Notes: a model not told the origin generated them from the letters alone. A stretch of DNA of 21,578 nt from a virus (IMGVR_UViG_3300046516_000192:1-21578), one strand, 5' to 3'; positions 1 through 21,578 are shown, numbered from the stretch's first letter. Numbers and translations: made by a program.

Positions 1-1
1 G

Positions 2-619
2 ATCGAGGGCGTGGTGCGCCAGGCCATCAACGACGACACCGCGGTGGCGATCGACACCGTTCTGATCGACGCCAATCCGGCGACCACGGTTCGGCCGGCC
101 GGCTTGCTCAACGGCATTTCGGGGCTGACGCCATCCGCCGCAGCGGCGAGGATAGACAAGATCATTGCGGACATTAGCGCATTGATGGCGCCGATCATCG
201 CCGCACGCGGCGGTCGCGACCTGGTGCTATTGTGCAATCCCGCGCAAAAGTTGTCGATGAGTTGGGCGGTGACGCCGATGGGGCAATTCATCTTCCAGGA
301 TGGCGAGCTCGCATCGCGCGGGCTTACGGTGGTTTCCTCGACCTCGATGCCGGCCACGCAATTGGTGATGATCGACGCCGCGGATTTCGCCTCGGTAACC
401 GGCGATAGTCCGCAGTTCGATGTCTCGGACGTGGCGACGATCCACGAGGAAGATACCACGCCGCTGGCGATCGGCACCGCCGGCGCGCCGCCGACCGTTG
501 CCGCACCGGTTCGCTCGCTCTGGCAAACCGCCTCGATCGGCATCCGCATGATGCTCGACATGAACTGGACCATGCGGCGCGCCGGGATGGTTTCCTGGAT
601 GACCGGCGTCACCTGGTAG
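2..619 (+). CDS. Major capsid protein, HK97 fold (5' end missing)
   Basis: This is the C-terminal 205 residues of a phage major capsid protein; the reading frame is open to the left edge, so the true start lies outside the window. Capsid proteins of this family form the icosahedral shell. Family hallmarks are visible: a PAGLLNG segment (the 'GTG..PxGLL' region of HK97-like capsids), a central nucleic-acid-independent beta-rich stretch, and a C-terminus rich in Met and Trp ending MVSWMTGVTW, typical of the P-domain end. An in-frame GTG at 11 is not a credible start because the protein would lack its N-arm and E-loop. The next gene follows after 11 bases with its own ribosome binding site. The terminase and protease genes expected upstream are not in view. 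Confidence 0.88.
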   Translation: MEGVVRQAINDDTAVAIDTVLIDANPATTVRPAGLLNGISGLTPSAAAARIDKIIADISALMAPIIAARGGRDLVLLCNPAQKLSMSWAVTPMGQFIFQDGELASRGLTVVSSTSMPATQLVMIDAADFASVTGDSPQFDVSDVATIHEEDTTPLAIGTAGAPPTVAAPVRSLWQTASIGIRMMLDMNWTMRRAGMVSWMTGVTW

Positions 620-630
620 GGAGTGCAAAC

Positions 631-1065
631 ATGGCAGACGACAAACACAAGCATGTGGCCGACCACGACCACGACGCCGCCGAAAAAAACCGCAAGGTTG
701 CCGAACAAGCGGCGGCGGCATCCGCACCGCCTAAATTCACGCCGGAACAACTGGCAACGCCGGCGCTCTCGATGATCGGCTATCGGCAGATGTATATCAT
801 TGTCGGACCCTATCGCGGCAACGTGTTGACAATGCCGGATGCCGAGGCGGAGGATGCCAAGGATAGCCATTGGGCGGTGGAAATGGAAACCGTCGCGCCG
901 CCTTATGATGCCTCAAAGCCGCGCGAGCACGACCACGAATTGACCGAGGAAGATCGCAACTATGCGATCGAGGCGGCCAACGCCTGGGCGGCCAAGGTCA
1001 ACCTGCCGCCGGAACCGCCACCGGACCCGCCGATCGCGCGGCGCGTAGGTGGCGAGCGCCGGTGA
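631..1065 (+). CDS. Hypothetical head-region protein with His-rich N-terminus
   Basis: A 144-residue protein of unrecognised family lies between the capsid and portal genes. The ATG at 631 is preceded by AGGGAG (618-623) at good spacing. The first 20 residues are unusually rich in His, Asp and Lys (HKHVADHDHD), a second HDH motif occurs near residue 100, and the C-terminus is Pro-rich (PPEPPPDPP). The middle (about 40-95) looks globular. Its position suggests a capsid-associated role such as a minor head or decoration protein, but this is inference from location only. The stop overlaps the GTG start of the portal gene by four bases, so the two are probably translationally coupled. Confidence 0.8.
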   Translation: MADDKHKHVADHDHDAAEKNRKVAEQAAAASAPPKFTPEQLATPALSMIGYRQMYIIVGPYRGNVLTMPDAEAEDAKDSHWAVEMETVAPPYDASKPREHDHELTEEDRNYAIEAANAWAAKVNLPPEPPPDPPIARRVGGERR

Positions 1066-2753
1066 GCCTCGCCACGCGCATAATGGATGCCTTCCGCGGT
1101 AAAGCCGCGGAGGGCGAATACCGGCCAGGGCCTTATCCGTTGATCTCCGGCGGCGTGCTGCCGGACGCCTGGGGCCAATATGCCAATTTTTGGCAAATGG
1201 GCTATCCGCCGCAAGGGATCGGCGGGTTCGGTTCCTGTTCGGCAATGGTCGAAGCCTGCGTTTCGGCCTATGCGCAGACCATCGCGCAATGCCAACTCAA
1301 CCATTGGATCGACCTCGGCAATGGCGGCCGGCAGCGTGTCACCAACTCGGCACTGTCGCGGGTGCTGCGGGCGCCGAACGACTACCAGACGGCAAGCGAT
1401 TTCATTCTCAACGCGGTGCGCTCGCTCTACCTCGACGGCAATGCCTATGCGCTGGCGCTGCGCAACGATCGCTATGAGGTTTCATCGCTGCATCTGATGC
1501 GGCCGAATTACTGCTACGCCGAGCCGGTCATGGGCGAAGTCTTTTATTCGCTCGGCGGCAACACCATCATCAATTCCAGGCTCGACGCGCTCGGGTTCGA
1601 GCCGCTGTCGGCGGTTCCGGCGCGTGACGTGTTTCATGTGAAACTGCATTCAAGCTGGAACTATCTGCGCGGCGAGACGCCTTTGACCGCGGCGGCGCTG
1701 TCGCTCGCCGCCGGCAATGCCGCGCTGTCGCAACTCGGCACCTTCTACCAGAACCAGGCGCGGCCAGGCGGCACCCTGCAAACCGACTTGAACCTGACCG
1801 GCGAACAGGTGACGCAATTGCGCACGCGCTGGGAGGAACAATCAAAAGGGCTCAACGCCGGCGGCACGCCGATCCTGACGCATGGGCTGAAATTCGAGCC
1901 GATCACCGTCAACGCCGCGGACGCGCAATTCGCCGAAACCATGAAATATAGCGATCAACAGATCTGCCAGGTCTTTGGCATCCCGATGGCGATCATCGGC
2001 TCGGAAGCGCAACCGATGGGCTCGACCGAGGCGTTGATGGCGTTCTGGATCTCGAAGGGCCTGGGGTTTGCGCTCAACCAGGTCGAGCTCGCGATCGATC
2101 GGCTGTTTGGGCTGTCGAAGATCGACGGCGAATATTCGGAATTCGACACCACCATTTTGATGCGCTCGGCGTTCAAGGACCGCATGGACGCGCTGACCAA
2201 GGCGGTGCAGGGCGGGATCTATTCGCCGAACGAGGCGCGCGCGCTGGAAAGCCTGCCTGCCGCCGAGGATGGCGACGAACCGCGGGTGCAGCAACAGGTG
2301 GTGCCGCTGTCGGCCTGGGATCAGATGCCGGCGCCGAGCGCGCCGAGCTCGCTGGCCAAGCCGGCCGCGGATCCGGAAAGCGCGGCCGAGGATGCCGCGC
2401 CAGGCGACAGCGAAATCGCCGGCAAGATGGCCGAGGTGACCAGGGCGCTGGAAGCCTTGCGCGGCACCATCGATGAATATGGCAACGTGGTGCGGCTGCC
2501 GGGGCCGCCTGGCGATCCCGGGCCGCCGGGACCGCCGGGAGAGCCGGGATATGGCGGGCGCGCCTGTGGGCTCTACAACGCCGCCGCGGCCTATCGTGCG
2601 ATGGACGTGGTTTCCTTCAACGGCAGCGAATGGCGGGCGATCGTGGACAACCCTGGAACCTTGCCTGGGCCGGATTGGATGCTCGGCGCCAAGGGCGCGC
2701 GGGGCAAGCGCGGCGATCGCGGGCCACCTGGCGAGGTGAGGGCCACGGCATGA
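1062..2753 (+). CDS. Portal protein, HK97 family, with collagen-like C-terminal extension
   Basis: The portal forms the dodecameric ring at one capsid vertex through which DNA is packaged and ejected. The 563-residue protein has the family's core: an N-terminal wing with SLYLDGNAYALALRND near residue 125, and the late motif SDQQICQVFGIPMAIIGSE near residues 297-315 (family pattern 'IcevFgVPp.llG'). The core ends near residue 410. A low-complexity linker follows, then Gly-X-Y repeats (481-496), a small Trp/Tyr-rich domain (about 499-541) and a second Gly-X-Y block (542-558). The small domain resembles a CBM5/12-type fold (AYRAMDVVSFNG...W). This tail is not part of the ordinary portal fold. 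The GTG start at 1062 overlaps the preceding stop (GTGA). The gene lies after the capsid gene, the reverse of the usual order. Confidence 0.9.
   Translation: MSLATRIMDAFRGKAAEGEYRPGPYPLISGGVLPDAWGQYANFWQMGYPPQGIGGFGSCSAMVEACVSAYAQTIAQCQLNHWIDLGNGGRQRVTNSALSRVLRAPNDYQTASDFILNAVRSLYLDGNAYALALRNDRYEVSSLHLMRPNYCYAEPVMGEVFYSLGGNTIINSRLDALGFEPLSAVPARDVFHVKLHSSWNYLRGETPLTAAALSLAAGNAALSQLGTFYQNQARPGGTLQTDLNLTGEQVTQLRTRWEEQSKGLNAGGTPILTHGLKFEPITVNAADAQFAETMKYSDQQICQVFGIPMAIIGSEAQPMGSTEALMAFWISKGLGFALNQVELAIDRLFGLSKIDGEYSEFDTTILMRSAFKDRMDALTKAVQGGIYSPNEARALESLPAAEDGDEPRVQQQVVPLSAWDQMPAPSAPSSLAKPAADPESAAEDAAPGDSEIAGKMAEVTRALEALRGTIDEYGNVVRLPGPPGDPGPPGPPGEPGYGGRACGLYNAAAAYRAMDVVSFNGSEWRAIVDNPGTLPGPDWMLGAKGARGKRGDRGPPGEVRATA
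2502..2549 (+). repeat. Collagen-like Gly-X-Y block 1 in portal gene
   Basis: Five consecutive Gly-X-Y triplets plus a final Gly (portal residues 481-496) are rich in Pro at X and Y (GPPGDPGPPGPPGEPG). Such repeats form a trimeric triple helix in collagen-like phage proteins. Confidence 0.9.
2685..2735 (+). repeat. Collagen-like Gly-X-Y block 2 in portal gene
   Basis: A second run of Gly-X-Y triplets (portal residues 542-558), more charged than block 1 (GAKGARGKRGDRGPPGE), lies five residues from the C-terminus. The two blocks flank a 43-residue Trp/Tyr-rich module. Confidence 0.88.
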
Positions 2754-3298
2754 GTTCCATTGTCGCGGCAAGCCTCGACCGCGCGGCGTTGCCGGCCGGC
2801 CTGTTGCCGATCGCCAAGTCGCATCTGCGGGTAGATGGAACCTATGACGACGCGTTCATTACCGACATCCTGGCGCGGTCGATTGCCTGGTTTGAGCGGG
2901 TGACCAATGTGAGCGTTAATCCGGTGACCTGGACCTGGGCGCCGGATCAAACCGATTTCGTCGCCGGTGCCGCTGTGGTGCCGGTGTCGCCGGTCAACAC
3001 TTTCACGGTGAAGGATGCCAGCGCGGCCGACATATCGAGCGGCTACCTGATCGAAACCATGTCGCAGCACGGTGTCGGGCTGTATTCGATTGTCGGCACC
3101 TTCGTTTCCGGCATGAAGGTGACGCTGGTTTCCGGCTATGCCTCGATCACGGCGCTCGATCCTGGCATCACCGACGCGGTGCTGCGCTACACCGGCCACC
3201 TCTATGAGAACCGCGAAATCATGGTGCTCGGCACCGACACGCAAACGCCGGGATGGCTGACGGACGTGATCGCCGGCTATTGGATGCCGAAAGTATGA
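2750..3298 (+). CDS. Head-tail connector protein, gp6-like
   Basis: This 182-residue protein matches the gp6-like head-tail connector group that sits below the portal ring. The N-terminal half has the usual mostly helical opening 'SHLRVDGTYDDAFITDILARS...WFERVTN', in which the LRVD and the D-D pair are typical, and the C-terminus has the helix 'DAVLRYTGHLYENRE'. I chose the ATG at 2750, whose ATGA overlaps the portal stop, rather than in-frame starts further upstream that would run inside the portal gene. The next gene overlaps its stop in the same way. A role as adaptor between portal and head closure protein is expected from family and position. Confidence 0.82.
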   Translation: MSSIVAASLDRAALPAGLLPIAKSHLRVDGTYDDAFITDILARSIAWFERVTNVSVNPVTWTWAPDQTDFVAGAAVVPVSPVNTFTVKDASAADISSGYLIETMSQHGVGLYSIVGTFVSGMKVTLVSGYASITALDPGITDAVLRYTGHLYENREIMVLGTDTQTPGWLTDVIAGYWMPKV

Positions 3299-3516
3299 AA
3301 TCGGTCGAGGTGTTCAGGGATTTTGACTATCACGCCTCGCCGCGCAAGACGGTGCGGTTTCACGCCGGCGTGACTTATTCTCGCGTGCTGGAAGCGGCTG
3401 CGGTCGCGATCGAGCGCGCGGGCGCCGGCCGCGTCGTAGGACAAGCCGGCGCGGCCGGTTCGATCATCGATGCAAGCCATGCCTTCCGGCCTGGCATTTG
3501 GAGGGTAAAGCCATGA
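3295..3516 (+). CDS. Hypothetical protein, 73 aa
   Basis: A small protein of unrecognised family, basic at its N-terminal half, containing an Ala-rich helix (residues about 26-42) and a C-terminal DASHAFRPGIWRVKP. The ATG at 3295 overlaps the connector stop (ATGA), and its own stop overlaps the next ATG at 3513, so it is embedded in the head operon. An upstream in-frame ATG at 3253 would lie wholly inside the connector gene and is less likely. Its location between connector and decoration-like protein suggests a minor head or joining function, but nothing in the sequence proves it. Confidence 0.7.
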   Translation: MKSVEVFRDFDYHASPRKTVRFHAGVTYSRVLEAAAVAIERAGAGRVVGQAGAAGSIIDASHAFRPGIWRVKP

Positions 3517-3923
3517 CGGACCTCGTAGTCGTACCGGCGAGCGTGCTTGCCGGCGCCAATGCACAGCGCGCCGCCGGCACCGCCGGCGTTGCCATCACCG
3601 CGGGCCAGGCGATCTACCTGGATCCGGTCACCAACCGCTATCTGTTGGCCGACAACAACGCGGTCGACGTCAATGCGCGGAAACCTACCGGGATCGCGCT
3701 CAACAACGCCGCGCCATCGCAACCGATCAATCTGTTGACCTCGGGCGACATCACGATCGGCGCGGCGGTCACCGCCGGCACCGATTATTTCCTGTCCGGC
3801 GCGCCAGGCGCGATCTGCCCGCGCGCGGACGTGGTCGCGACCATGAACGTGACGCTGATCGGGCTGGCCAAATCGGCCACCGTGATCGCGGTCGATATTC
3901 AATCATCGGGCGTCACGCTGTAG
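3513..3923 (+). CDS. Putative capsid decoration (cement)-like protein
   Basis: A 136-residue, Ala- and Val-rich protein with a repetitive beta pattern (AGQAIYLDPVTNRYLLADNN, later TSGDITIGAAVTAGTDYFLS). Small beta-rich proteins with this 'G.aiyld..t...yl.aD' signature occur in head modules and are often annotated as decoration or DUF2190-like proteins. The assignment is by resemblance and position, not by a decisive motif. The ATG at 3513 is preceded by GGAGG at 3500-3504, a strong ribosome binding site, consistent with high expression of a structural protein. The preceding stop overlaps this start. Confidence 0.62.
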   Translation: MTDLVVVPASVLAGANAQRAAGTAGVAITAGQAIYLDPVTNRYLLADNNAVDVNARKPTGIALNNAAPSQPINLLTSGDITIGAAVTAGTDYFLSGAPGAICPRADVVATMNVTLIGLAKSATVIAVDIQSSGVTL

Positions 3924-3926
3924 ATC

Positions 3927-4714: not shown

Positions 4715-4730
4715 ACCAGGAGAGATCAAG

Positions 4731-9755: not shown

Positions 9756-12731
9756 GTGGCAATCTTCACCGCGCTCGCCACCTTCCTGTTGGCCGGGACA
9801 TTCCTGGCGGGCTCGGCGCTCGCCACCGGCGCGCTGGCGCTCGGGCTCGGGCTCGCCACCACGGTCGGCGTGTCCTATGTGATGAAGGCGCTGGCCGGCA
9901 CGCCGGCGACACCGGCCGCCCAAGACAATTTCGGCACGCAAGGCAATCTCGCCGCCGGCGGCGACATTCCGCGATCGTTCGGCCTCGGCTACCACGCCAC
10001 CGCGGGCTCGCTGGTGTACGCCAATTATTGGGGCCACGCGGGGCTGACGCCGAACGCCTATCTCACCCAGGTGATAGCGGTTTCCGATCTGCCAGGCGAA
10101 CAACTGATCGAGGTGTGGGTAAACGGCGAAAAGGTGACGCTGGACTACAGCCAGGTTGATCCGGCTCTCGGGGTAGGCATTCTCGAATATGCCAAGGCCG
10201 GCGCGCAACATCTCTGGATCCACTATTACAATGGCACGCAAACCGCGGCCGATCCGTTTCTGACCAGTCTGGTATCGTCGGCCGATCGTCCCTATGGAGC
10301 GGATCGGATCGGGGCCGGCGTTGCCTATGTGATCATGACGTCGTTGGTCGAGGATACCTTGTTCAAGGGGTTCCCGACCTTCAAGTTTGTTTTGAGCGGC
10401 ATCCCGCTTTACGATCCCTCGAAGGATGACACCAACGGCGGTAGTGGATCGCACCGCTACAGCGATCCCTCGACCTGGGGCGGCGACGGCGACCAATTGC
10501 CGGCGGTGCAAGCCTACAACATCTTGCGCGGCATCAAGTACAACGGCGCATGGTTGTACGGCCTGCAAAACATGACGAGCGCGGCGCGGCTGCCGGCGGC
10601 GAACTGGAACGCGCAGATCGCCAAGTGCCGCGCGCTGATTGCGAGCTCGACCGGATCCGAGCCGAGCTATCGCAGCGGCGGCCAGGTCAATGTGGACACG
10701 CAACCGGCTAACGCGATCGAGGCAATCTTGACCGCGTGCCAGGGCCGGCTTTCGGAAATCGGCGGTTTCTACAAAATCCATTTGGGCACGCCCGACAGCG
10801 CGGCGTTTTCCTTCACCGACGCCGACCTGCTGTCGAGCGAGCAACAGACTTTCCGTCCGTTTTTCTCGCTGGCCGACAGTGTCAACGGCATCCAGGGCAC
10901 CTATCCGGATCCGAGCCAGGGCTGGAACAGTGCCACCGCGCCGCCGCTCTATCGCACCGATTTGGAGGTGCGCGACGGCAACCGGCGCTTGATGGCGTCG
11001 CCGCAATTCGATTTCGTGCCGTATCCGGAACAGGTGCAACGGCTGCAAAAATCGGGGATCGAGGAAAGCCAGCGCGCACGCACGCACGTTTTGCCATTGC
11101 CGCCGGCCTATTGGGTAGTCGAGCCTGGCGATGTCGGCACCTGGTCGAGTTTCCGCAACGGCTACACCAACAAGCTATTCCGCGTCGATCATGTGGTCGA
11201 TCGCGCAAACCTCGACATGGTGCTGGCGGTCACCGAGGTGGATCCGGCCGATTATTCCTGGGATCATACCGTCGACTACACCGGCGTTTCCACCGGCGTC
11301 ACCGTCATACCGCGGCCACAACCGCAAGGCGTGATTGACTGGTATGCCGAGGGGACGGTGCTGTATGACGCGGACGGGCTCGGCCGTCATGCCGCGATCC
11401 GCATTGCCTGGGATGGTACGCTCGATGGTGTGGTCGGCGTGCAATACGAGGTGCGGCTGTCAGCGGACCTGTCGAGTGTTACCCGTGGCCGCACCGATCA
11501 ACTCGCCGCCGGCGCGCTGATCATTTCGCAAGGGATCATCGAACAGACCGCCTACCAGGTGCGCGGGCAATATCTGCCATCGTCGCCGCGCGACATGCTG
11601 TGGTCGGATTGGCTCGACGTGGTGACGCCGGCGCTGCCGGCGGTGGATATTCCGGCCTGGATCGCGGTCCAGGTCACCACCGTGATGGACTACCTAAACG
11701 ACCGCTTGGAGGAAATTCACCAACGGCTCTCGACCGTTACCGGAACCTCAAATCAACGCAACTGGCTCGACCTCAAGGACGTGCGCTCGCAACTGTCGAG
11801 CCGATCGGATGCCGCGTTTGCCGAGATTGCCCGCGTCGAAACCGTGTCGACCTCGAACGACAGTGCGATGGCGAGCGACATCGAGACACTGACAACCACG
11901 GTCGGCGACAACTCGGCGGCCATCACCGTCAACGCCACCGCGATCGCAACGCTCGACAGTTACGCTGCCGCGCAATATTCCGTCACGCTCGATGTCAACC
12001 ACTACGCTACCGGCTTTGAACTGATCAACGGCGGGCAGGGCGTCTCGGCCACGATCTTTACAACCGACAAATTTCTGGTGGCGGCACCGGGCACGGCGGG
12101 CGGATTGCCGACGCCGATCTTTACGGTCGCCAATGTCAACGGCTCGGCCAAGGTCGCAATTCGCGGCGATATGTATGTCGATGGCACCATTGCCGGCTCG
12201 GCGATCATATCCGGCTCGATCACGGCAACCCAGATTGCCGCCAACTCGATCACCGCCGACCGCCTGGTGACCGGCACCATCACAAGCGACAGCGGCAAGA
12301 TCGGCGCGCTATCCGTCAAAAGCCTGAGCCTCGGCGATGCCTCGGTAGTGGTGCCGGTGGCGGAAACCCGCGGCGATGCAATCGGCTCGACCGCGGGCGC
12401 CTATACGCCGGTAAGCTCGGTCAATATGTCGATCGACACCACCGGGCTGGCGGGCAAGGTGATTTCGATCATTGCCGGCTGGACCGGCCAGATGGGCTAC
12501 AGTGGCAGCGGCGCCAATCCGGCGGCACAATTGGTGATCGACGGCGCCGTGATCCAGACTGTGCAAGTCACCAACAGCCAGGACAGTGGATTGACATTGA
12601 CGGGATCGCGGGCGTTTTCGGCCGGCGGTGGTGTCGAAAATCACAGCATCGTTTTGCAATATGCCTCGGGGCCGACCGGCGGGCCGCAACTGTTGGCGCG
12701 AACCTTGTGGGCGATGGCGGGCAAGCGATGA
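9756..12731 (+). CDS. Tail tip / host-specificity protein, gpJ-like
   Basis: A 991-residue protein forming the tail tip and probably contacting the host. The first 45 residues are strongly hydrophobic and Gly/Ala-rich (FLLAGTFLAGSALATGALAL), like lambda gpI, suggesting a gpI-like segment fused to a gpJ-like body. The following region (about 60-400) resembles the hub and FN3-like part of J proteins (IEVWVNGEKVTLDY, PSTWGGDGDQLPAVQAYNILRG). A coiled-coil-like stretch lies near 655-725, then a DUF1983-type domain near 740-815 (YATGFELINGGQGVSATIF...TPIFTVANVNG), the usual C-terminal region of J. A final beta domain (about 860-991) follows. GTG start at 9756, one base after the GNAT stop. Confidence 0.88.
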   Translation: MAIFTALATFLLAGTFLAGSALATGALALGLGLATTVGVSYVMKALAGTPATPAAQDNFGTQGNLAAGGDIPRSFGLGYHATAGSLVYANYWGHAGLTPNAYLTQVIAVSDLPGEQLIEVWVNGEKVTLDYSQVDPALGVGILEYAKAGAQHLWIHYYNGTQTAADPFLTSLVSSADRPYGADRIGAGVAYVIMTSLVEDTLFKGFPTFKFVLSGIPLYDPSKDDTNGGSGSHRYSDPSTWGGDGDQLPAVQAYNILRGIKYNGAWLYGLQNMTSAARLPAANWNAQIAKCRALIASSTGSEPSYRSGGQVNVDTQPANAIEAILTACQGRLSEIGGFYKIHLGTPDSAAFSFTDADLLSSEQQTFRPFFSLADSVNGIQGTYPDPSQGWNSATAPPLYRTDLEVRDGNRRLMASPQFDFVPYPEQVQRLQKSGIEESQRARTHVLPLPPAYWVVEPGDVGTWSSFRNGYTNKLFRVDHVVDRANLDMVLAVTEVDPADYSWDHTVDYTGVSTGVTVIPRPQPQGVIDWYAEGTVLYDADGLGRHAAIRIAWDGTLDGVVGVQYEVRLSADLSSVTRGRTDQLAAGALIISQGIIEQTAYQVRGQYLPSSPRDMLWSDWLDVVTPALPAVDIPAWIAVQVTTVMDYLNDRLEEIHQRLSTVTGTSNQRNWLDLKDVRSQLSSRSDAAFAEIARVETVSTSNDSAMASDIETLTTTVGDNSAAITVNATAIATLDSYAAAQYSVTLDVNHYATGFELINGGQGVSATIFTTDKFLVAAPGTAGGLPTPIFTVANVNGSAKVAIRGDMYVDGTIAGSAIISGSITATQIAANSITADRLVTGTITSDSGKIGALSVKSLSLGDASVVVPVAETRGDAIGSTAGAYTPVSSVNMSIDTTGLAGKVISIIAGWTGQMGYSGSGANPAAQLVIDGAVIQTVQVTNSQDSGLTLTGSRAFSAGGGVENHSIVLQYASGPTGGPQLLARTLWAMAGKR

Positions 12732-12968: not shown

Positions 12969-15587
12969 ATGAGTTTACCTGTCTATTCAACCGGCACAGT
13001 TTCGGTCGCCGCCGGCGATACCGTGGTGACATTGGCCGGCGGTATGTGGTCGGGCACCAACGTCAAGCAGGGCGATTTCATTTCGATCGCCAACTCGGCC
13101 GCAATGTTGATCACCGAGGTGACCGATGCCTCGCATCTGAAAATCGCGCCATGGCCAGGTGCGGCGCAGACCGCGGCGGCCTACCAGATTTTTCAGAACT
13201 ATGTCGGCCGCGTCGTCGGCGTGGCGGCGGCGGAAGATGTCGGCGTGATGCTGGAAAAGCTGCATACCGATGGCTTGCCTTTTATCGTCGGCAGCACCGA
13301 AACCGCGCCGGATCCGTCATATGGCGATGAGGGCCAACTGGCTTTCAAACCGTCAACCGGGCAATGGTGGATTAAAAGCGGTGGCGCCTGGGTGCCATCC
13401 TATGGCCTGTCGGCAATCGGCTATGGCGGCACCTCGGCAACATCGGTCTTGATCGGGCTGTCGCCGCCGACCAAGGTATTCACCACGCAAGCGCAACTCG
13501 CCTATAATGGCGCGCGGGTGCGGGCGGCGAGTGCGGCCAATCTCAACAATTTCATGGAAGGCGTTGCGAGCTATTCCGGCACCACGCTGACCATGACGGC
13601 GGACACGGTTTCGGGTGCCGGCACCTTCGCCGATTGGTTGTTTTCGATCGCGGGCCAGAAGGGTGCCACCGGGCCGGCGGGGCCGACCGGCGCCAGCGGC
13701 GGCACATTTCCCGACGCGCCGAGCGATGCGGTGTTGTACGGCCGCAAGAGTGTCAGTGTCGGCGGTCAGATCGCCTGGGCCGCGGTGCCGATCCCGCCGG
13801 CAACCGCGCAAGTGTTCCGGCCGGAAGATTTCGGCGGCGGGGCCGCGGTCGCCAACAATGCCACCGCGTTTCAGAACCTCGCCGCGGCGGTGCGCGCCGC
13901 CGGTGGCGGCGTGATCCAATTGCAGCCAAATAAAACCTATGTGGTTTATCCGAGCGACCCGGCGGCCGGCTTTTATACGCTGATGGACCTAAGCAACACC
14001 AACGGCGTGGTTTTCGATTCAAACGGCGCGACGATTAGTTGTCCGAGCCTCGGTTTCAGCAATGCCGGCGACATCACCATCACCGTTTTGTATTTCAAGA
14101 ATGCAACCAATTATTTCATCAACGGCCTGCGTCTTGCACAGCCGAACTATCCGACCCAAAGCCTGCTGCGAGGGTTCATCGCGGTGCAAAACCATAATAC
14201 CGTGATCAATGCGCTGATTTGCAACTTGACCATGATCGGCGGTCGCGCCGGGCTATGGAACACCCGCGACCAGGGCCTGGCGTTCAGTTCGCTCGGACAC
14301 GGATTGACGCTGTTAAATGCGGATTTTCAAAACGTCGGCTATCCGCTGTCGTTTCAAAAAAACATGAATAATTTTGTCGGCCGCGGCATCAAATCGCGCG
14401 GCGCCTATCGCTGCTATTTTCCTTATAATGTTTGCCAGCACGACGTGCAGATCGAGAGCGATGCCAGTGGCGCGGGCCAGGACTGCATGATCAATAATTC
14501 GTATGATGCGTCCGAGAGCCTCCCGCACAATACCATAAGCAACATCAAGCTGGATTATGTTTGCCGGCCAAATGATCCCGGTTGGACGGCGCCGAACGCC
14601 TTCACCTGTATTTCGTTCCAGACCGGCGGCGGCAGCACTGAAGGTAAAGCCATCATTCGCAACATCGATTTGCGGGTGAATATCGACAACCAGGTGGCAA
14701 ACACGCCGACCACCGTCCTGACGATACTCAACCAGACCACCACGCCAAAAAACCGGATCCTGGAAAATGTTCACCTGACCGGATCCTATTCCGTTTATGC
14801 GACGACCGCCGGCAATTGGCTCGACCTGTTCAACGACAAGGATTGGACGGGCGACCAGGTTGTCAATTTTGCGGTCGAAAATTTCGATATATCGTCGGCG
14901 AGCTCGAACTTGGCGATCTTGATGGACGGGCGCGCCGTCAACGGGCCGCTGGTATTTCGCAACATAAGCCAGGCCGATGGCGCCAACAGTTCTTTTGTCG
15001 GCACCAACATGGCCAACGCCAACCGTTTTATCGTTGCCGAAAATGTCCCATGGTCGAAGGGCCTGCAAACCGCCGGCACCGGACTAGGCCGGGTATCGGT
15101 GTTCGGGGCGCAACTCACGATCCCGCCAACGGGAACCAACGGGCTGTCGGTCAAGGGCAGTTCGACATCGGGCGTGGTTACGTTCATCGATTTTGCCGAT
15201 AGTGCATTTTCACAGTGCGGCGCCATCAACTGCGATCAGGGTGCACATACAACCTCCTACCAGACATCGTCTGACGCCAGGGCAAAACCGAACCGCGAAT
15301 TGATGACGGTGGCGGCGGCGATCGACGTGCTGTCGCGCCTGACGATCTGGGATTTTGACAAAGACGGCAACCATATTCGCGGTGTCGGCGTGCTGGCGCA
15401 AGAGGCGTATGAGGTGCTGCCGCGCATGGTGATGAAGGGCGACGACAATCCAGATCTGCAGCCGGGCGACGAAGGCTATGTCGGGTGGTCCGCCGAAAGT
15501 TCCTACCCGGTGCCGTATCTGATCGTGGCGTTGCAGGAGGCGCTGCGGCGGATCACCACGCTGGAAACCATGGCGGCCGGCAAGTGA
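12969..15587 (+). CDS. Tail fibre/tailspike with beta-helix and self-cleaving S74 chaperone domain
   Basis: This 872-residue receptor-binding protein has three recognisable parts. The N-terminal 225 residues are beta-rich, followed by a short collagen-like linker (Gly-X-Y, 229-245). From about residue 282 (VFRPEDFGGGAA) a Pectate_lyase_3-type right-handed beta-helix begins, with the usual 'DFGA' entry and Asn-rich turns up to about residue 740; such domains bind or cut surface polysaccharide. The C-terminal S74 intramolecular chaperone begins at S768-D769 with K773 (S-D-A-R-A-K), the self-cleavage motif, and continues with 'GVGVLAQEAYEVLP'. Cleavage would release a 105-residue chaperone. ATG at 12969 is preceded by GAGG (12957-12960). 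The beta-helix part is visibly richer in A and T than the rest of the operon, suggesting a swapped host-range domain. Confidence 0.88.
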   Translation: MSLPVYSTGTVSVAAGDTVVTLAGGMWSGTNVKQGDFISIANSAAMLITEVTDASHLKIAPWPGAAQTAAAYQIFQNYVGRVVGVAAAEDVGVMLEKLHTDGLPFIVGSTETAPDPSYGDEGQLAFKPSTGQWWIKSGGAWVPSYGLSAIGYGGTSATSVLIGLSPPTKVFTTQAQLAYNGARVRAASAANLNNFMEGVASYSGTTLTMTADTVSGAGTFADWLFSIAGQKGATGPAGPTGASGGTFPDAPSDAVLYGRKSVSVGGQIAWAAVPIPPATAQVFRPEDFGGGAAVANNATAFQNLAAAVRAAGGGVIQLQPNKTYVVYPSDPAAGFYTLMDLSNTNGVVFDSNGATISCPSLGFSNAGDITITVLYFKNATNYFINGLRLAQPNYPTQSLLRGFIAVQNHNTVINALICNLTMIGGRAGLWNTRDQGLAFSSLGHGLTLLNADFQNVGYPLSFQKNMNNFVGRGIKSRGAYRCYFPYNVCQHDVQIESDASGAGQDCMINNSYDASESLPHNTISNIKLDYVCRPNDPGWTAPNAFTCISFQTGGGSTEGKAIIRNIDLRVNIDNQVANTPTTVLTILNQTTTPKNRILENVHLTGSYSVYATTAGNWLDLFNDKDWTGDQVVNFAVENFDISSASSNLAILMDGRAVNGPLVFRNISQADGANSSFVGTNMANANRFIVAENVPWSKGLQTAGTGLGRVSVFGAQLTIPPTGTNGLSVKGSSTSGVVTFIDFADSAFSQCGAINCDQGAHTTSYQTSSDARAKPNRELMTVAAAIDVLSRLTIWDFDKDGNHIRGVGVLAQEAYEVLPRMVMKGDDNPDLQPGDEGYVGWSAESSYPVPYLIVALQEALRRITTLETMAAGK

Positions 15588-16229: not shown

Positions 16230-16231
16230 TC

Positions 16232-16251: not shown

Positions 16252-16286
16252 CTCGACACCGGACCACCGCCGATCTGCAAGGGCTG

Positions 16287-16532
16287 TTAGCGCGGCCAGT
16301 GATGGCGCAATTTGCCGATGATCCGAAACGCCTGTTGTTTGAGCTCGCTATCCTGGCGGCCGGCGGCCATCACCTCACACTCTAGCTTGCGCAAGAACGC
16401 ATCGTTGAGGAAGGTGGGCAATGGCGCATGGTTGTAGTCGTCGAGCTCGAGCTCGATCGCGGCGAGCACGTTGTCGAGGTGATCGGATCCGGCTTGCTTG
16501 AACGGGTTCGGCAATATGGTTTCGTTGATCAT
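16287..16532 (-). CDS. Hypothetical protein coupled to the GcrA-like gene
   Basis: An 81-residue protein, mostly helical, with alternating acidic and basic patches (LDNVLAAIELELDDYN then LRKLECEVMAAGRQDSELKQQAF). No family is recognised. The ATG at 16532 overlaps the TGA of the GcrA-like gene (ATGA) and lies just after its G tract, which may serve as the ribosome binding site or modulate coupling. The two genes form a two-gene minus-strand operon that converges on the late genes. Confidence 0.65.
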   Translation of the reverse strand: MINETILPNPFKQAGSDHLDNVLAAIELELDDYNHAPLPTFLNDAFLRKLECEVMAAGRQDSELKQQAFRIIGKLRHHWPR

Positions 16533-16999
16533 TCACCCCCCCCCCCCCCCGTTAACCCTTTGCTAACGTTTGGATCCCGCTTGTAGGCAATCCGCAGATG
16601 GTGCGGGCAATAGGACATGCCGCGCAAGGTGCGACCACCGCAGAACTCGATGGCGGGCGCAAAGGTCGGGCCTAACGGCCAGCGGCACCGCCTGGTGCCG
16701 AGCTCGACCAGCGGACAGGGATCCATAGCTAACCGGTCCAGGCTCGGCGGCAATGGTTTCGACTGCATTGTCTTGATCCGCTTGCGTTTTGGTGGCGGCG
16801 CGCGGCCGACCTTGCGAGGTGGGATTATATAATCGGTTTTCGGTTCCAATTGAACACCGGCGCGCCGTAGCCTCGACAATTTGCCGCAAACCGCGTTGCG
16901 GGTGCGGCCGAGCACTTTGCCGGCCTGGTACGCCGAATGATCCTGCCAAAGCAATTCCAACGCGGCGACATCGGCCGGCGTCCAATCCCGATCGCGCAT
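16529..16999 (-). CDS. GcrA-like cell-cycle regulator
   Basis: A 156-residue protein resembling alphaproteobacterial GcrA, a sigma-70 partner that reads methylated GANTC sites at cell-cycle promoters. The N-terminus is GcrA-like: RDWTPADVAALELLWQDHSA, then TRNAVCGKLSRLRRAGV (family 'TRNAVIGKvhRLGLsgR'), a helix-turn-helix near residues 6-48. The C-terminus has C105-R-W107-P, F119-C120-G, and YC131-x-H133, the conserved GcrA Cys/Trp/His elements. Start at ATG 16999 rather than 17086, because GGAGAAAGG lies just upstream and the extension has no GcrA similarity. The end of the gene is a run of 15 G encoding Gly residues. Confidence 0.85.
   Translation of the reverse strand: MRDRDWTPADVAALELLWQDHSAYQAGKVLGRTRNAVCGKLSRLRRAGVQLEPKTDYIIPPRKVGRAPPPKRKRIKTMQSKPLPPSLDRLAMDPCPLVELGTRRCRWPLGPTFAPAIEFCGGRTLRGMSYCPHHLRIAYKRDPNVSKGLTGGGGGE
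16536..16550 (-). repeat. 15-G homopolymer at the GcrA-like gene 3' end
   Basis: Fifteen consecutive C on the plus strand (G on the coding strand) encode the last glycines of the GcrA-like protein and abut the ATG of the next gene. Long G tracts are prone to length change during replication, and also to sequencing and assembly error. One extra G would end the protein at the tract; one fewer would read through into the downstream gene. Confidence 0.95.
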
Positions 17000-17084
17000 A
17001 GCGATGCGACCTTTCTCCGCTTGATCTGCGGAACGGCAAGAAAAGCCTTGCTTTGGCTTCCGATATAAAAAAATTGAAAATTTC

Positions 17085-17114
17085 ACTTTACGAAGCAGTC
17101 GGGAAGTAATTCAA
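17085..17114 (-). promoter_or_regulatory. Candidate minus-strand promoter for the GcrA-like operon
   Basis: On the minus strand, TTGAAT (17114-17109) and TAAAGT (17090-17085) are separated by 18 bases, each a partial match to sigma-70 -35 and -10 elements. The left arm of the inverted repeat (17090-17101) falls between them. Matches are modest and no mapped start is available. Confidence 0.3.
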
Positions 17115-17142
17115 AAAAGAAAATCCTCAACGACTGCTTCGT
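17090..17142. promoter_or_regulatory. Perfect 12-bp inverted repeat in the divergent promoter region
   Basis: ACGAAGCAGTCG (17090-17101) and CGACTGCTTCGT (17131-17142) are exact reverse complements separated by 29 bases, with centres 41 bases apart (about four helical turns). They sit in the AT-rich 174-base gap (17000-17173) between the divergent GcrA-like and exonuclease genes, which is otherwise non-coding. The arrangement suits an operator pair for a dimeric or looping regulator. No known operator is matched. Confidence 0.6.
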
Positions 17143-17173
17143 CAAGTCGCAATTTGTAACAAAGAGCGTCAAC

Positions 17174-18100
17174 ATGGCGATCATTTCGGTTCCGGTGACG
17201 GATCGCGCGCAATGGCTGAAGCTGCGCCTGCCCAATGTCGGCGCCAGCGAAGTCGGCGCGCTGTTCGGAATTCACGATTATCTGACGGGGTTTGCGCTCG
17301 CCGCCAAAAAGCTCGGCCGGCTCGCCGACGAACCTGACAACGCCACGCTGGAACGCGGGCGCGACCTGGAACCGATCGCGGCAAAGAAGCTGGCGCGAAT
17401 CCGGCCGGATCTGATCCAGGAAAAAGCCGAGCACTATTTTTACGATCCGGAACTGAAATTCGGCGCCACGCCGGATCTGTTCGTGTTCGATGAGCGCGAC
17501 CGCCGCGGCGTGGTGCAGATCAAGACGGTGATGCCTGGCGAATTCGCGCGCAAATGGCACGGTGACGCCGGCACCATCATGCCGCCGCTGTGGATCGCGC
17601 TGCAGGCGATGACCGAACAGCATTTCACCGAAAGCGAATTCGCGCTTGTGGCCGCGCTGGTGCTCGACAGCGACTTGCCGCTGCATGTGGTCGAGGTGCC
17701 GTATATGCCGTTGCTGATGACGGAAGCGGAGGCAAAGGTGGCGGCGTTCTGGCAGATGATCGCGGCCGGCGAATTGCCGGATCCGGACTATGGCCGCGAC
17801 AGCGAAGCGATCAAGGCGGTGTTTGCCACCGATGACGGCGGCGAGCTCGATCTTACGGCCGACAACGAACTGCCGGAAATCGTTGACCAACTGGAAGCCT
17901 TGAAAATGGCGCGCAAGACCGCCGAGGAAGGGATCGAGCAAGCGCAAGGCAAGATCCTGCACCGGCTCGGCAACGCGCAACGCGCCAGGTATGCCGGCGG
18001 GATGATCACCGCCAAGACCGAACACCGCAAAGCCTATCAGGTGGCGGCGAGCACGCGGCGGCCGTTGCGGATCAAGCCCGATCGGGAGAAAGCCGCATGA
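17174..18100 (+). CDS. YqaJ-type recombination exonuclease
   Basis: A 308-residue nuclease of the YqaJ / lambda Exo group, which resects double-strand ends to provide 3' tails for a RecT annealase. Motifs: GASEVGALFG (23-32, the family's 'asd...ilG'), LERGRDLEP (59-67), ATPD with D101, and VQIKT with K117 and Q115, followed by PPLWIALQAMTE (Q-motif). The usual acidic residue of the D-(E)xK pair is Gln here, as in some members of the subfamily. A coiled coil lies near 240-275. It is divergent from the GcrA-like gene. Its stop overlaps the recT start (ATGA), so exonuclease and annealase are coupled, as in other phage Red systems. Confidence 0.85.
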   Translation: MAIISVPVTDRAQWLKLRLPNVGASEVGALFGIHDYLTGFALAAKKLGRLADEPDNATLERGRDLEPIAAKKLARIRPDLIQEKAEHYFYDPELKFGATPDLFVFDERDRRGVVQIKTVMPGEFARKWHGDAGTIMPPLWIALQAMTEQHFTESEFALVAALVLDSDLPLHVVEVPYMPLLMTEAEAKVAAFWQMIAAGELPDPDYGRDSEAIKAVFATDDGGELDLTADNELPEIVDQLEALKMARKTAEEGIEQAQGKILHRLGNAQRARYAGGMITAKTEHRKAYQVAASTRRPLRIKPDREKAA

Positions 18101-18936
18101 ACAAAAACGAGATCGCCACGCTAAAGCTGCAACTCGACACCATCAAGCCGCAAATCGTGGCGGCGTTGCCGCCGCATATTTCCTACGACAAGTTTGAAAG
18201 CGTGTTGAAAACCGCGCTGCAGATCAACCCGGAATTACTCAATGTCGATCGGCGTTCGCTCTGGCTCGCCTCGACTAAGGCGGCGCAAGACGGGCTGCTG
18301 CCGGATGGCCGGCAGGGCGCGCTGGTGATCTACAAGGACAAAAGGCGCGGGGCGATCGCGCAATGGTTGCCGATGATCGCCGGGATCCGGCAGAAGGTGC
18401 GCAACTCGGGCGAGGTGGCGACCTGGGAAGTGCACACCGTGCACGAAAAAGATCGCTTTGAATATCAACTCGGCGACCATCCGCGGATCGAACACATACC
18501 GCACCGCGGCGCCGATCGCGGCCAGATCATCGCCGCCTATTCGATCGCGGTGCTCAAGGGCGGCGACATCTCGCGCGAGGTGATGTGGATCGATGAGATC
18601 GAGGCGATCCGCGAAGGCTCACGCGCCGGCAATAGCGGGTCGTGGGTGAGCCACTACGGCGAGATGGCAAAAAAGACGGTGGCCAAGCGTCACGCTAAGG
18701 TGCTGCCGATGTCGAGCGATTTGGATGAGATGTTGCGCGCCGGCGATGAGGATCCCGAACCGGCGGCGGCGCCAGGGCGCAACCTGACCGACGCGCTCAA
18801 CATGATCGCAGGCCTGCCGGAAGGCAAAGGCGACGTGGTGCCGGCCGAGCCGGAAAACGAACAGGTCGCCGCGATCTTGCAACAGGCCGATCTGATCGAG
18901 GCGATCGACGCGGCCGAGGAGGCGGCCAAGTCATGA
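18097..18936 (+). CDS. recT: RecT-family single-strand annealing protein
   Basis: A 279-residue RecT protein that binds resected ssDNA and anneals it during recombination. Family features are the opening 'LPPHISYDKFESVLKTALQINPELLNVDRRSLWLASTKAAQDGLLPDGRQGALVIY', 'AIAQWLPMIAGIRQKVRNSGEV' and 'YGEMAKKTVAKRHAKVLP'. The last 70 residues are Ala/Glu/Pro-rich and variable. ATG at 18097 overlaps the exonuclease stop. The order exonuclease then RecT is the standard module in alphaproteobacterial phages. Confidence 0.92.
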   Translation: MNKNEIATLKLQLDTIKPQIVAALPPHISYDKFESVLKTALQINPELLNVDRRSLWLASTKAAQDGLLPDGRQGALVIYKDKRRGAIAQWLPMIAGIRQKVRNSGEVATWEVHTVHEKDRFEYQLGDHPRIEHIPHRGADRGQIIAAYSIAVLKGGDISREVMWIDEIEAIREGSRAGNSGSWVSHYGEMAKKTVAKRHAKVLPMSSDLDEMLRAGDEDPEPAAAPGRNLTDALNMIAGLPEGKGDVVPAEPENEQVAAILQQADLIEAIDAAEEAAKS

Positions 18937-19130
18937 AAGCAACCGCAAGGCTGGGCGAGCTCGCCAGGGTGTTGAAGGCGGCCGGCCGATCGGGCCATCC
19001 GGTGCGCCAGGTCACCATTGACAGTAACGGGCAAATCAAGCTGACGTTTGGGGCAGACGGCGCCGACTGCGTCGAGGGTACAAAAGGGGAACCGAACGAA
19101 TGGGACGACCTGCTGCAACGGCCAAAGTAA
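18933..19130 (+). CDS. Hypothetical 65-aa protein after recT
   Basis: A small protein with a basic N-terminal helix (TARLGELARVLKAAGR) and a beta segment ending QIKLTFGADG. No family is recognised. ATG at 18933 overlaps the RecT stop (ATGA), and the integrase start lies 31 bases inside its 3' end. Proteins of this type are common between recombination genes; a role as recombination accessory or integrase partner is only a guess from position. Confidence 0.7.
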   Translation: MKATARLGELARVLKAAGRSGHPVRQVTIDSNGQIKLTFGADGADCVEGTKGEPNEWDDLLQRPK

Positions 19131-20257
19131 GGCTGCCGAAATACGTCAACGCCTATCTCGATCAGACCGGTCAACCGCGGCACTATTTCCGCCGCGCCGG
19201 CGCCAAGCAGACGGCGTTGCCAGGTTTACCGTGGTCGGCCGATTTCATGGCGGCCTATGCCCGCGCGCTGGAAGATTACCGCGCGCCGGTGCGGGCGCCG
19301 ATCGGATCCGGCGGGACGCTGGCCGGCACCGTCAATGCCGCGGTGGTGGCCTATTATCAATCGAGCGCGTTTTCGGTCGAGCTCGCCAAGGGCACGCAAG
19401 GGCCACAGCGGTCGCTGATCGAGCGGTTCCGCACCGAACACGGGACTAAGCGGATCCGGCTGCTCGAACGCAAGCACGTGCAAGCCTACATCTCTAGCCT
19501 CGGATCGGCCGCGGTACAGCGCAACATGCTGCGCGCGCTCCGACACTTTCTGAAATATGCCGTGACCGCCGGGATGATCGCCGAGGATCCGAGCGTCGGT
19601 GTATCCAGGATCAAGATGAAATCAACCGGCGGGTTCTATGCCTGGACCGAGGATGACGTTTCCCGCTTCGAGGCGGCGCATCCGATCGGATCCCAGGCGC
19701 GGCTCGCGCTGGCGCTCTACCTCAACCTCGGGGTTCGCAAAAGCGACGTGGTGCGGATCGGGCCGCGGTCGATCCGCAACGGTGAGTTGGTGGATTTCGC
19801 GCCGCAGAAAACCAGCCACAACAACGGCAAGCTGATCACGGTGCCGCTGCTGGAAGAAACCAAGGCGATCCTGGCGGCCACGCCGGTGACCGGCACCGAT
19901 GCCTACCTGGTGAATTCCTGGGGCAAGCCATACACCGCGGCCGGCTTTGGCAACAAGATGCGCGAATGGTGCGATGCCGCCGGCCTGCCGGAATGCACCT
20001 CGCACGGCCTGCGCAAGCTGTGCCTGATCCGGCTGGCGGAAGCCGGCTTTTCGGCGCCGGCGATCGGCTCGATTTCGGGGCACAAGGACCTGCGCGAAAT
20101 CCAGACCTACATCGACGCCGCCGACCGCAAAAAGATGGCGCGGGCCACGATCGCCGCGGTCGAGGCGGCACGAAAAGCGAACACCGGATTGCCTAATGCA
20201 CAAAGCCTGTTAGGCAATTCGGCGAAAAAGACCAACAATATCAAGGGTAAAAACTGA
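19100..20257 (+). CDS. int: Tyrosine recombinase (phage integrase)
   Basis: A 385-residue integrase that recombines attP with attB and, with a helper, excises the prophage. It has an N-terminal DNA-binding part, a SAM-like core-binding domain (about 75-165) and the catalytic domain (175-370). The catalytic set is complete: R213 in GVRKSD, K237 in APQKT, H302 and R305 in SHGLRK, H328 in SGHKD, and the nucleophile Y337 in QTYIDAADR. The ATG at 19100 has AGGGGAA (19085-19091) at 8-base spacing. No excisionase is recognised. The C-terminal codons overlap a repeat cluster that may be part of attP. Genes continue on both sides, which fits a free-phage map more than an integrated prophage. Confidence 0.93.
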   Translation: MGRPAATAKVRLPKYVNAYLDQTGQPRHYFRRAGAKQTALPGLPWSADFMAAYARALEDYRAPVRAPIGSGGTLAGTVNAAVVAYYQSSAFSVELAKGTQGPQRSLIERFRTEHGTKRIRLLERKHVQAYISSLGSAAVQRNMLRALRHFLKYAVTAGMIAEDPSVGVSRIKMKSTGGFYAWTEDDVSRFEAAHPIGSQARLALALYLNLGVRKSDVVRIGPRSIRNGELVDFAPQKTSHNNGKLITVPLLEETKAILAATPVTGTDAYLVNSWGKPYTAAGFGNKMREWCDAAGLPECTSHGLRKLCLIRLAEAGFSAPAIGSISGHKDLREIQTYIDAADRKKMARATIAAVEAARKANTGLPNAQSLLGNSAKKTNNIKGKN

Positions 20258-20369
20258 GGGTGGTGAGCGCGGAGGAAGTCGCACATTCCTAGGAAATCAA
20301 TGACTTACGATTGCCTAATGGCATTTCGCGGGCGTTGAAACGTCATAGGTTTCTTGGAAAGTGCCTAAT
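20187..20369. repeat. TGCCTAAT repeat cluster at the integrase 3' end (att or arm-site candidate)
   Basis: GATTGCCTAATG occurs identically at 20187-20198 and 20309-20320. TTAGGCAAT at 20210-20218 is an exact inverted copy of ATTGCCTAA, and TGCCTAAT recurs at 20362-20369. The non-coding gap 20258-20407 also holds the palindrome TTCCTAGGAA (20286-20295). Four copies in 183 bases is far above chance. Placement over the integrase end is typical of attP arm sites or integrase/excisionase operators. The crossover core is not identified. Confidence 0.55.
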
Positions 20370-20382
20370 CCTTCGATGCCCA

Positions 20383-20404
20383 TTGCCCTCGAAAAAGAGG
20401 GCGA
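20383..20404 (+). promoter_or_regulatory. Hairpin covering the DUF1376 gene ribosome binding site
   Basis: GCCCTC (20385-20390) pairs with GAGGGC (20397-20402) over a GAAAAA loop, extendable by a T-G and a T-A pair. The 3' arm is the only ribosome binding site of the ATG at 20408, so the fold would hide it. This suggests translational control, but a rest of the leader could also open it. Confidence 0.45.
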
Positions 20405-20407
20405 GCC

Positions 20408-20932
20408 ATGAGCCGAGCCTATGTCGCGTTCTACATGGGAGACTATGCCAGGGACACGCAAGAGCTCTCGACGCTGGAACACGGCGCCTATTTCCTCTTG
20501 CTCAATCAATGCTGGGTGCACGGCTCGCTCCCGTCCGATCCGGCCAGGCGCGCGGCCATTGCCAAGCTGACGTCGCGGGAATGGCGCAAGGTGGCGCCGG
20601 CGGTCGAGCGGTTCTTCGATGAGGATGGCCGACAGAAACGCGCCACCACCGAAATCGAGAAAGCCGATCGGGCTCGGGAGCGTCATGCGCTGGCCGGCCA
20701 CAAGGGCGGAATGGCCAAGGCTCGCTCTAGCTACGCTACAGCCGGGCCACAGCGGGGCCACAAGCCTCGCCACAGCGGGGCTGTAGCATTAAGAGAAGAT
20801 ATAACTAAAACCTTTTCTGGAACCGCGCGCGAGCAAGAAAGCGGCTCGGCAATGCAAGGCGTTGAAAAACCTCAGATCGCAACCGGCAGTCTTGCCGAGG
20901 TGATCGCCGCAAAAGGCTGGGTGAAGCCATGA
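20408..20932 (+). CDS. DUF1376 (YdaU-like) replication protein
   Basis: A 174-residue protein with a typical DUF1376 N-terminus: YVAFYMGDYARDTQELSTLEHGAYFLLLNQCWVHGSLPSDPARRAAIAKLTSREWRKVAPAVERFF. These domains head phage replication initiator or replisome organiser proteins. The C-terminal part (from about 95) is low-complexity and basic, encoded over an iteron-like repeat block (20724-20787), and the final 40 residues are unrelated to known domains. Start at ATG 20408 with AGAGGG (20396-20401) upstream, in a hairpin. The next gene overlaps the stop. The usual longer initiator is not present, so it may be a short version. Confidence 0.82.
   Translation: MSRAYVAFYMGDYARDTQELSTLEHGAYFLLLNQCWVHGSLPSDPARRAAIAKLTSREWRKVAPAVERFFDEDGRQKRATTEIEKADRARERHALAGHKGGMAKARSSYATAGPQRGHKPRHSGAVALREDITKTFSGTAREQESGSAMQGVEKPQIATGSLAEVIAAKGWVKP
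20724..20817. repeat. 11-bp-phased iterons plus AT-rich stretch inside the DUF1376 gene (candidate origin)
   Basis: Units beginning GCYACARSC start at 20735, 20746, 20757 and 20769 (GCTACAGCCGG, GCCACAGCGGG, GCCACAAGCCTC, GCCACAGCGGG), at spacings of 11, 11 and 12 bases, after a degenerate unit at 20724. Ends are bracketed by GCTACAGCC (20735-20743) and its complement GGCTGTAGC (20779-20787). A 30-base stretch with only 7 G or C (20788-20817) follows. The period is not a multiple of three, so it is not a protein repeat. The layout recalls lambda ori inside gene O. Confidence 0.55.
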
Positions 20933-21075
20933 CGGGGAGAGATCTTGAGCTCTGTCTGATCGCGCTGCGCCGGATCCGCTCGCTCGACCCAAAAAACGTC
21001 GCAACGCAAGCCCGGCAGATCGCGATCGAGGCGCTGATGCAGGTGGAACGTCCAGAAGGTGCAAAGCCATGCTGA
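20929..21075 (+). CDS. Micro-gene, 48-aa hypothetical protein
   Basis: A short frame of 48 codons between the DUF1376 gene and the next ORF. ATG at 20929 overlaps the DUF1376 stop (ATGA) and its stop at 21073-21075 overlaps the next gene's start region by seven bases. The protein is a single predicted helix with alternating Arg and Leu (LELCLIALRRIRSLDPKNV, then QARQIAIEALM). No family is recognised. Conservation of the 4-base overlap is the main support. Confidence 0.58.
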   Translation: MTGRDLELCLIALRRIRSLDPKNVATQARQIAIEALMQVERPEGAKPC

Positions 21076-21278
21076 CCGCCGGCCGCAATTATCCTGGTTA
21101 CGCGATGCGCGATTTGCAGCGCGAAGCCGAGGCCGAGGTTGTGATGAGGCGCCGCATCTATGAGAACCGCGTGCTGACCGGCCGCATGACGCGGGCACAG
21201 GCCGACAGCAAGATCCGCAAGATGGAAGCGATCGCCGCACACTTGGCCGAGCTCGCCGACCGGGAGCGGCTGCTTTGA
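21069..21278 (+). CDS. Hypothetical 69-aa helical protein
   Basis: A charged, coiled-coil-like protein: a short N-terminal piece (TAGRNYPGYAMRDL) then long helix rich in Arg, Glu and Ala (REAEAEVVMRRRIYENRVL, KIRKMEAIAAHLAELADRE). Such small phage proteins between replication genes are usually of unknown role. Start ATG at 21069; the stop overlaps a TTG start of the next frame (TTGA). Confidence 0.65.
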   Translation: MLTAGRNYPGYAMRDLQREAEAEVVMRRRIYENRVLTGRMTRAQADSKIRKMEAIAAHLAELADRERLL

Positions 21279-21578
21279 CGCAACTCGACCACGCCACCGC
21301 ACCATCGCCGGCCTGGACGGCGAACAAGGTGCGATCGCGGCTGGTCGAAGCCAAGCAAGTCGAAATGCGAATGCCAGGCCAGGGACAGCGCAAGCTCGGC
21401 TCGGCCTGGCCGGCAACGCCGCTGCACTCGTTTCACGATATGATGTTTTGGGATGACGCGCGCGATCGCGTGCTCGATCAATGGGCCGCGGCCAAGGGCG
21501 CCTATCCACATGAGGTGAGTTTAATGGAACAGGCGCTCGATTGGCTGCGATGGCTCGACAGCGGCGAGCGGCGATGCC
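21275..21578 (+). CDS. Hypothetical protein, DUF6362-like, 3' end outside window
   Basis: An open frame of 101 codons to the right edge, probably starting at TTG 21275, which overlaps the preceding stop. The product starts TQLDHATAPSPAWTANKVRS and later has WPATPLHSFHDMMFWDDARD and EQALDWLRWLDSGERR. The 'W...kV..RL.EA' opening and the C-terminal 'a..WlrwL...er' suggest the phage-associated DUF6362 type, which may be sigma-like or helix-turn-helix, but this is a weak resemblance. A TTG start is rare, and an internal ATG cannot be excluded. Its role is unknown. Confidence 0.55.
   Translation, partial: MTQLDHATAPSPAWTANKVRSRLVEAKQVEMRMPGQGQRKLGSAWPATPLHSFHDMMFWDDARDRVLDQWAAAKGAYPHEVSLMEQALDWLRWLDSGERRC

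Follow-up and report, generated by a model that had tools for sequence, protein, structure and literature searches.

Avoidance of GANTC in a lineage of temperate siphoviruses: comparative evidence favoring type II restriction

The window analyzed here, a stretch of 21,578 bases (positions 1–21578), is the complete IMG/VR virus record IMGVR_UViG_3300046516_000192 and contains no host sequence. Its structural, recombination and integrase genes identify it as a fragment of a temperate siphovirus. The + strand carries genes for the portal protein (1062–2753; phrog_12, E = 2e-83), a megatron-type tail-tip protein that served as tree marker (9756–12731; phrog_5616, E = 2e-192), a RecE-like exonuclease (17174–18100; phrog_434, E = 8e-50), a RecT-like annealing protein (18097–18936; phrog_148, E = 8e-50) and a tyrosine integrase (19100–20257; phrog_1, E = 7e-29; PF00589, E = 2e-12), the presence of which led us to regard the phage as temperate. 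A tail-fibre gene spans 12969–15587, and the gene set also includes a major head protein, head–tail connectors, a tape measure and a primosomal protein. The INPHARED collection held no close phage. Homologues of the tail, portal and integrase proteins pointed to a host only through a Nitrobacter prophage (≈ 50%) and other distant prophages; the host is probably a member of the Hyphomicrobiales.

The window also encodes a GcrA-like protein, whose gene had been passed over in the original prediction (16529–16999, − strand; 156 aa from the ATG at 16999, in an ORF open to 17086). The protein matched PF07750 at 72.8 bits (cut-off 26.9) and, in the PDB, GcrA structures 7ye1 (E = 5e-13), 5yix and 5yiu, covering the DNA-binding and sigma-binding fragments. 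In the alignment it retained the N-terminal WT...TRNAV-GK--RL helix-turn-helix and the C-terminal CRWPLG...FCG...YC--H sigma-binding region. Its score against NF050816, the model of the cell-cycle GcrA orthologue, was 61.6 bits, below the equivalog cut-off of 280, and by these scores it is a homologue of GcrA and not the host cell-cycle orthologue. A search with this single protein gave no match. GcrA reads methylated GANTC (PMC3667746). The gap that separates gcrA from the divergently oriented recE contains no GANTC and holds a 17-nt inverted repeat (ACTTTACGAAGCAGTCG / CGACTGCTTCGTCAAGT; 17085–17147; 94%, 29 nt apart) that looks operator-like. A run of 15 C residues (G on the coding strand; 16536–16550) lies at the 3′ end of gcrA, immediately ahead of the stop codon and near the start of the gene at 16287–16532; it may reflect either an error of assembly or a tract prone to slippage.

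An exact count confirmed that the window contains only two GANTC sites, at the positions originally reported: GATTC at 14016–14020, inside the tail-fibre gene, and GAATC at 17397–17401, inside the RecE-like exonuclease gene. Since both lie within coding sequence, we rejected the idea that they are promoter elements that have been kept. GACTC and GAGTC were indeed absent. The original expectation of about 75 sites holds for a zero-order model (74.3, so that the window stands at 0.03 of this value) but is too high under realistic nulls, which give about 40. Thus, a maximal-order Markov model predicted 40.2 sites, and 500 rounds of synonymous codon shuffling, in which every protein was kept and one gene was mis-framed, yielded 40.8 (SD 4.8, minimum 26). 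The Poisson probability of 2 sites given 40.8 is 2e-15. When the shuffling was repeated on automatically chosen long ORFs, GAWTC was found 2 times versus 21.4 and GASTC 0 times versus 14.1. The shortfall of GASTC therefore comes to some 14 sites and not to 46, because GASTC is already rare in the lineage (0.30 of zero-order in the host samples described below). The next most depleted N-centered pentameric palindrome was CTNAG (10 versus 74), and CTAG and some hexamers were also depleted, more mildly than GANTC. In the opposite direction, GATC was over-represented in the coding sequence of the window (275 versus 166 upon synonymous shuffling), and CGATCG occurred 60 times.

The loss of GANTC was spread over all genes of the window and was carried by codon choice. 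After a GAN codon, serine was encoded by AGY 22 times and by TCN once; elsewhere, AGY was used 93 times and TCN 246 times (P = 4e-11). This codon choice, together with the synonymous shuffling, shows that the depletion is real and acts on DNA rather than on protein.

A search with the tail-tip protein retrieved 32 related virus contigs and one Nitrobacter prophage. The window and contigs L003–L005, L007, L008, L010–L014, L016, L031, L034 and L035 formed a low-GANTC group (0–0.11 of zero-order), and the remaining relatives mostly had 0.3–0.95. In a tree of 53 tail-tip proteins, the window fell within a clade of 16 rows (SH-aLRT 100), within which the tail-tip proteins share about 67–76% identity. 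All rows of this clade were depleted save L020 and L025, and L009 and L015 had partly recovered; its sister clades had ordinary numbers of GANTC. Compared with the sister phages, no other pentamer was nearly as depleted in the clade as GANTC. The exceptional contigs L020 and L025 (G007 and G012) are 99.4% identical where they overlap and probably represent one phage, which has GANTC at ordinary numbers though it sits inside the avoiding clade. Its genome is mosaic: the head genes do not come from the clade and have a similarity of only about 40% to those of the window. The best near-complete member of the clade is G005 (L016; 42 kb, from the genome of an isolate), which shares the gcrA–recE–recT–integrase order with the window and contains 13 GANTC sites versus 81 (Markov) or 144 (zero-order) expected. 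In the window, G004 and the smaller members of the clade, synonymous shuffling pointed to avoidance of GANTC in each of its four forms; in G005, GAWTC was strongly and GASTC partly avoided.

Of the avoiding phages in the window clade, four (the window included) have contigs that extend into this region, and 4/4 encode a GcrA-like protein, the other three proteins being only 29–44% identical to that of the window. GcrA-bearing phages that do not avoid GANTC were common, namely the Mu-like G009/G010, the Nitrobacter prophage G016, G012, G013 and L086, and no GcrA was detected in the avoiding phages Aussie, Shpa and G415. Being found in avoiders and non-avoiders alike, GcrA was rejected as a determinant of avoidance; carriage of GcrA and avoidance of GANTC are separable features. 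A GcrA homologue also lies at L065:9402–9986 in a Mu-like transposable prophage of an isolate genome, and GcrA seems to be widespread among unrelated kinds of alphaproteobacterial phages.

To place these numbers against the host background, we counted GANTC in bacterial chromosomes and prophages. Chromosome samples that we call Bradyrhizobium-like (a label that rests on genome size and GC content within the family of Nitrobacter) mostly had GANTC at 0.4–0.6 of zero-order, with GAWTC at 1.05 and GASTC at 0.30, and Nitrobacter samples had about 0.75–1.06. Nearly all of 24 portal-bearing prophages from one Bradyrhizobium-like genus stood at host level (pooled GAWTC 0.80, GASTC 0.31), and most prophages overall had 0.3–0.7 of zero-order. 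The depletion in the window is thus sharper than general alphaproteobacterial under-use, as had been proposed: the count of 2 is far from the Markov expectation, and host genes are not equally depleted. Genes for CcrM-type methyltransferases were present in 7/7 complete genomes searched, including those with non-avoiding prophages, and most prophages in CcrM-positive genomes were no more depleted of GANTC than their hosts. The presence of CcrM in the host therefore does not in general lead to avoidance.

Some phages avoided GAWTC only. The cleanest case was RHph_X2_26 (MW960037; L256, L265), a cultured Sinorhizobium phage with 1 GAWTC versus 50.7 and 61 GASTC versus 49.4 upon synonymous shuffling. 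Here, serine following GAA or GAT was never encoded by TCN (AGY 25), whereas after GAC or GAG we counted 29 TCN and 16 AGY codons (P = 2e-8). Two prophages of Bradyrhizobium-like genomes behaved similarly in the same analysis: G351 had 1 GAWTC versus 12.7 and 10 GASTC versus 13.2, and G356 had 1 versus 36.2 and 22 versus 35.6; their GASTC was at about host level and only mildly reduced. The GAWTC-only phages avoided palindromic hexamers generally (mean log2 O/E of −1.2 to −1.4 versus −0.24 in hosts), and strongly so in RHph_X2_26. The prophages of G351 (L107:9414–10571) and G356 (L116:9281–10636) and a similar one in G437 all carry an N6_N4 methyltransferase gene some 8–10 kb from the portal gene, the product in G356 having a ParB_N match. 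Our searches of the open-access literature turned up no account of GAWTC-only avoidance, and the class looks new.

Phage methyltransferases were also compared. A search for PF01555, MT-A70 and Dam found none in the window, G003, G004 and G005, the first three of which are possibly incomplete. Among records of more than 30 kb, a PF01555, MT-A70 or Dam-type gene was present in 0/2 avoiders versus 7/11 non-avoiders, a difference that is not significant (P = 0.19); as a clean discriminator of avoidance, the phage methyltransferase is therefore suggestive only. The GANTC-keeping phage of the avoiding clade (G007/G012) encodes an MT-A70 methyltransferase (with DUF3102; L061:471–2414) whose gene adjoins gcrA, and the avoiders Aussie and RHph_X2_26 encode methyltransferases of the D12 class.

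What, then, removed GANTC? The original prediction had proposed either avoidance of CcrM-dependent regulation or restriction by a HinfI-type enzyme. Its premise of selection held, and the comparison favors restriction, with an enzyme that we infer as the agent: on balance, we think that type II restriction by HinfI- or TfiI-like enzymes is probably the cause. GANTC sites entering the cell unmethylated would be cut by HinfI-like (GANTC) or TfiI-like (GAWTC) enzymes of some hosts of the lineage, and the phage lineage would thereby have been purged of GANTC, mostly via synonymous changes. The host chromosome would be shielded by the near-universal m6A mark of CcrM; phage DNA would be methylated unreliably, as CcrM acts during no more than a brief stretch of the cell cycle. 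Several observations favor restriction. Only some phage lineages show avoidance, even though a CcrM-type gene occurs in every complete genome tested. Several lineages avoid GAWTC only, and type II enzymes of both specificities exist, HinfI cutting at GANTC, and TfiI and PfeI at GAWTC. The GAWTC-only phages avoid palindromic hexamers generally. GANTC was depleted against both codon- and composition-preserving nulls, and the depletion stayed within a palindromic type II specificity, with normal levels of other words that match it in composition. Moreover, site elimination in phage genomes is nearly confined to orthodox type II sites (PMC6286503). The MT-A70 methyltransferase beside gcrA in the GANTC-keeping G007/G012 would also support restriction if it acts on GANTC, an argument weakened by the non-significant methyltransferase contrast and the mosaicism of this phage. 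Counting against restriction are that we identified no GANTC or GAWTC endonuclease, that the host of the clade was not found, that the avoiders Aussie and RHph_X2_26 carry D12-class methyltransferases and that the phage is temperate, complete site elimination being unusual in temperate phages (PMC6286503).

The main alternative is that the CcrM/GcrA mark itself is avoided. Methylated GANTC on a genome present in many copies would recruit or titrate GcrA–sigma70, or couple the transcription and replication of the phage to the cell cycle of its host, and the phage's own GcrA would act on the host only. The presence of gcrA in the window and in each of the other three avoiders that reach the region, the reading of methylated GANTC by GcrA, the GANTC-free gcrA–recE gap and the avoidance of all four central bases in the window clade agree with this explanation; given the last point, the central base cannot be used against avoidance of CcrM in that clade. 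On the other side, all phages of CcrM-positive hosts should then be affected alike, and most prophages are not; non-avoiding phages with GcrA are common (G009/G010, G016, G012, L086), and avoiders without a detectable one exist (Aussie, Shpa, G415). The described target of CcrM and GcrA is GAnTC (PMC3667746), and a mark that these hosts share and that takes no account of the central base should not yield the GAWTC-only avoidance of RHph_X2_26 and the G351 and G356 prophages. We regard avoidance of the mark as possible but doubtful. Still less do we expect that the phage GcrA is a purely host-directed regulator, which would work solely in trans, at methylated promoters of the host, and drive the host into a replication-competent state, GANTC-free promoters keeping the phage itself outside the cell-cycle programme; this is improbable.

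Three further explanations carry little weight. Avoidance of methyl-directed repair or of another replication-linked system would leave GAWTC-only avoidance unexplained, and we know of no MutH-like system tied to GANTC in Alphaproteobacteria, so that we judge it very unlikely. It has a precedent in phiX174, which is devoid of GATC, a motif needed for methyl-directed mismatch repair, and in which restored sites lower the mutation rate (PMC5014478). A nuclease or modification-linked weapon encoded by the phage, cutting unmethylated GANTC of competitors while its own genome is cleared of the site, would predict the same genome-wide pattern, and many small genes of the clade have no assigned function. 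Pfam and PADLOC searches of most genes of G005 and G004, however, showed no restriction-type nuclease among the families listed, the nucleases identified being terminase and YqaJ/RecE-type enzymes, and we hold such a weapon to be extremely unlikely. Ordinary composition, codon bias or amino acid usage, with no selection on GANTC, accounts for part of the expected 75 sites, GASTC being rare in hosts too (0.30). As the cause of the depletion, chance or composition is refuted by synonymous shuffling, both in the window (41 versus 2 observed, with 40 from the Markov model) and in other lineages, and by the pentamer comparison with the sister phages, and we give it practically no credence.

Phages depleted of GANTC (pelagiphages), phage-encoded GcrA (phiCbK-like phages) and phage GANTC methyltransferases are already known. 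With the present results, GANTC elimination, known from marine phages of SAR11, is also seen in phages from soil whose hosts are probably Hyphomicrobiales. The GAWTC-only lineages add a sequence test that separates restriction from the CcrM mark, both of which were left open in the published case. If restriction is the cause, GANTC- and GAWTC-cutting enzymes should await discovery in Alphaproteobacteria, with CcrM giving self-protection, and RHph_X2_26, with its named host Sinorhizobium americanum X2_26, makes these predicted enzymes directly testable.

The closest published case is that of the pelagiphages. Seong et al. (2022, PMC9516812) found roughly half of the pelagiphages, as well as one Pelagibacter prophage, to be depleted of GANTC and raised restriction as a possible cause; as in the window lineage, depletion clusters by phage phylogeny, and the hosts methylate GANTC and have no identified R–M system. 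The pelagiphages differ in that their hosts are SAR11 bacteria and depletion is most marked in podoviruses, and the parts of that report considered here name neither avoidance of a central-base subset nor GcrA in depleted phages. In the cases of type II site avoidance surveyed by Rusinov et al. (2018, PMC6286503), as in the window, one short palindromic site has nearly gone from the genome; the window differs in coming from a temperate phage, for which elimination is rarer, in that no cognate enzyme is known and in that the site is present in the host chromosome, where an orphan enzyme methylates it. The phiX174 genome has likewise lost sites marked by an orphan methyltransferase of its host (PMC5014478), but the link there is mismatch repair, with no GANTC equivalent known. 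The phiCbK-like Caulobacter phages encode a PF07750 GcrA homologue like that of the window (Gill et al. 2012, PMC3556154); they are, however, giant siphoviruses, their GcrA shows just 33% identity across 77% of the protein, and a 20-kb stretch of phiCbK had GANTC at 0.28 of zero-order, which is not elimination. Finally, Sinorhizobium phages with GANTC-specific methyltransferases (PMC5537653) are, like the phage of the window, temperate alphaproteobacterial phages that deal with GANTC, and phi2LM21 had the site at 0.42–0.45 of the shuffled level; these phages methylate GANTC, whereas the window lineage has removed it.
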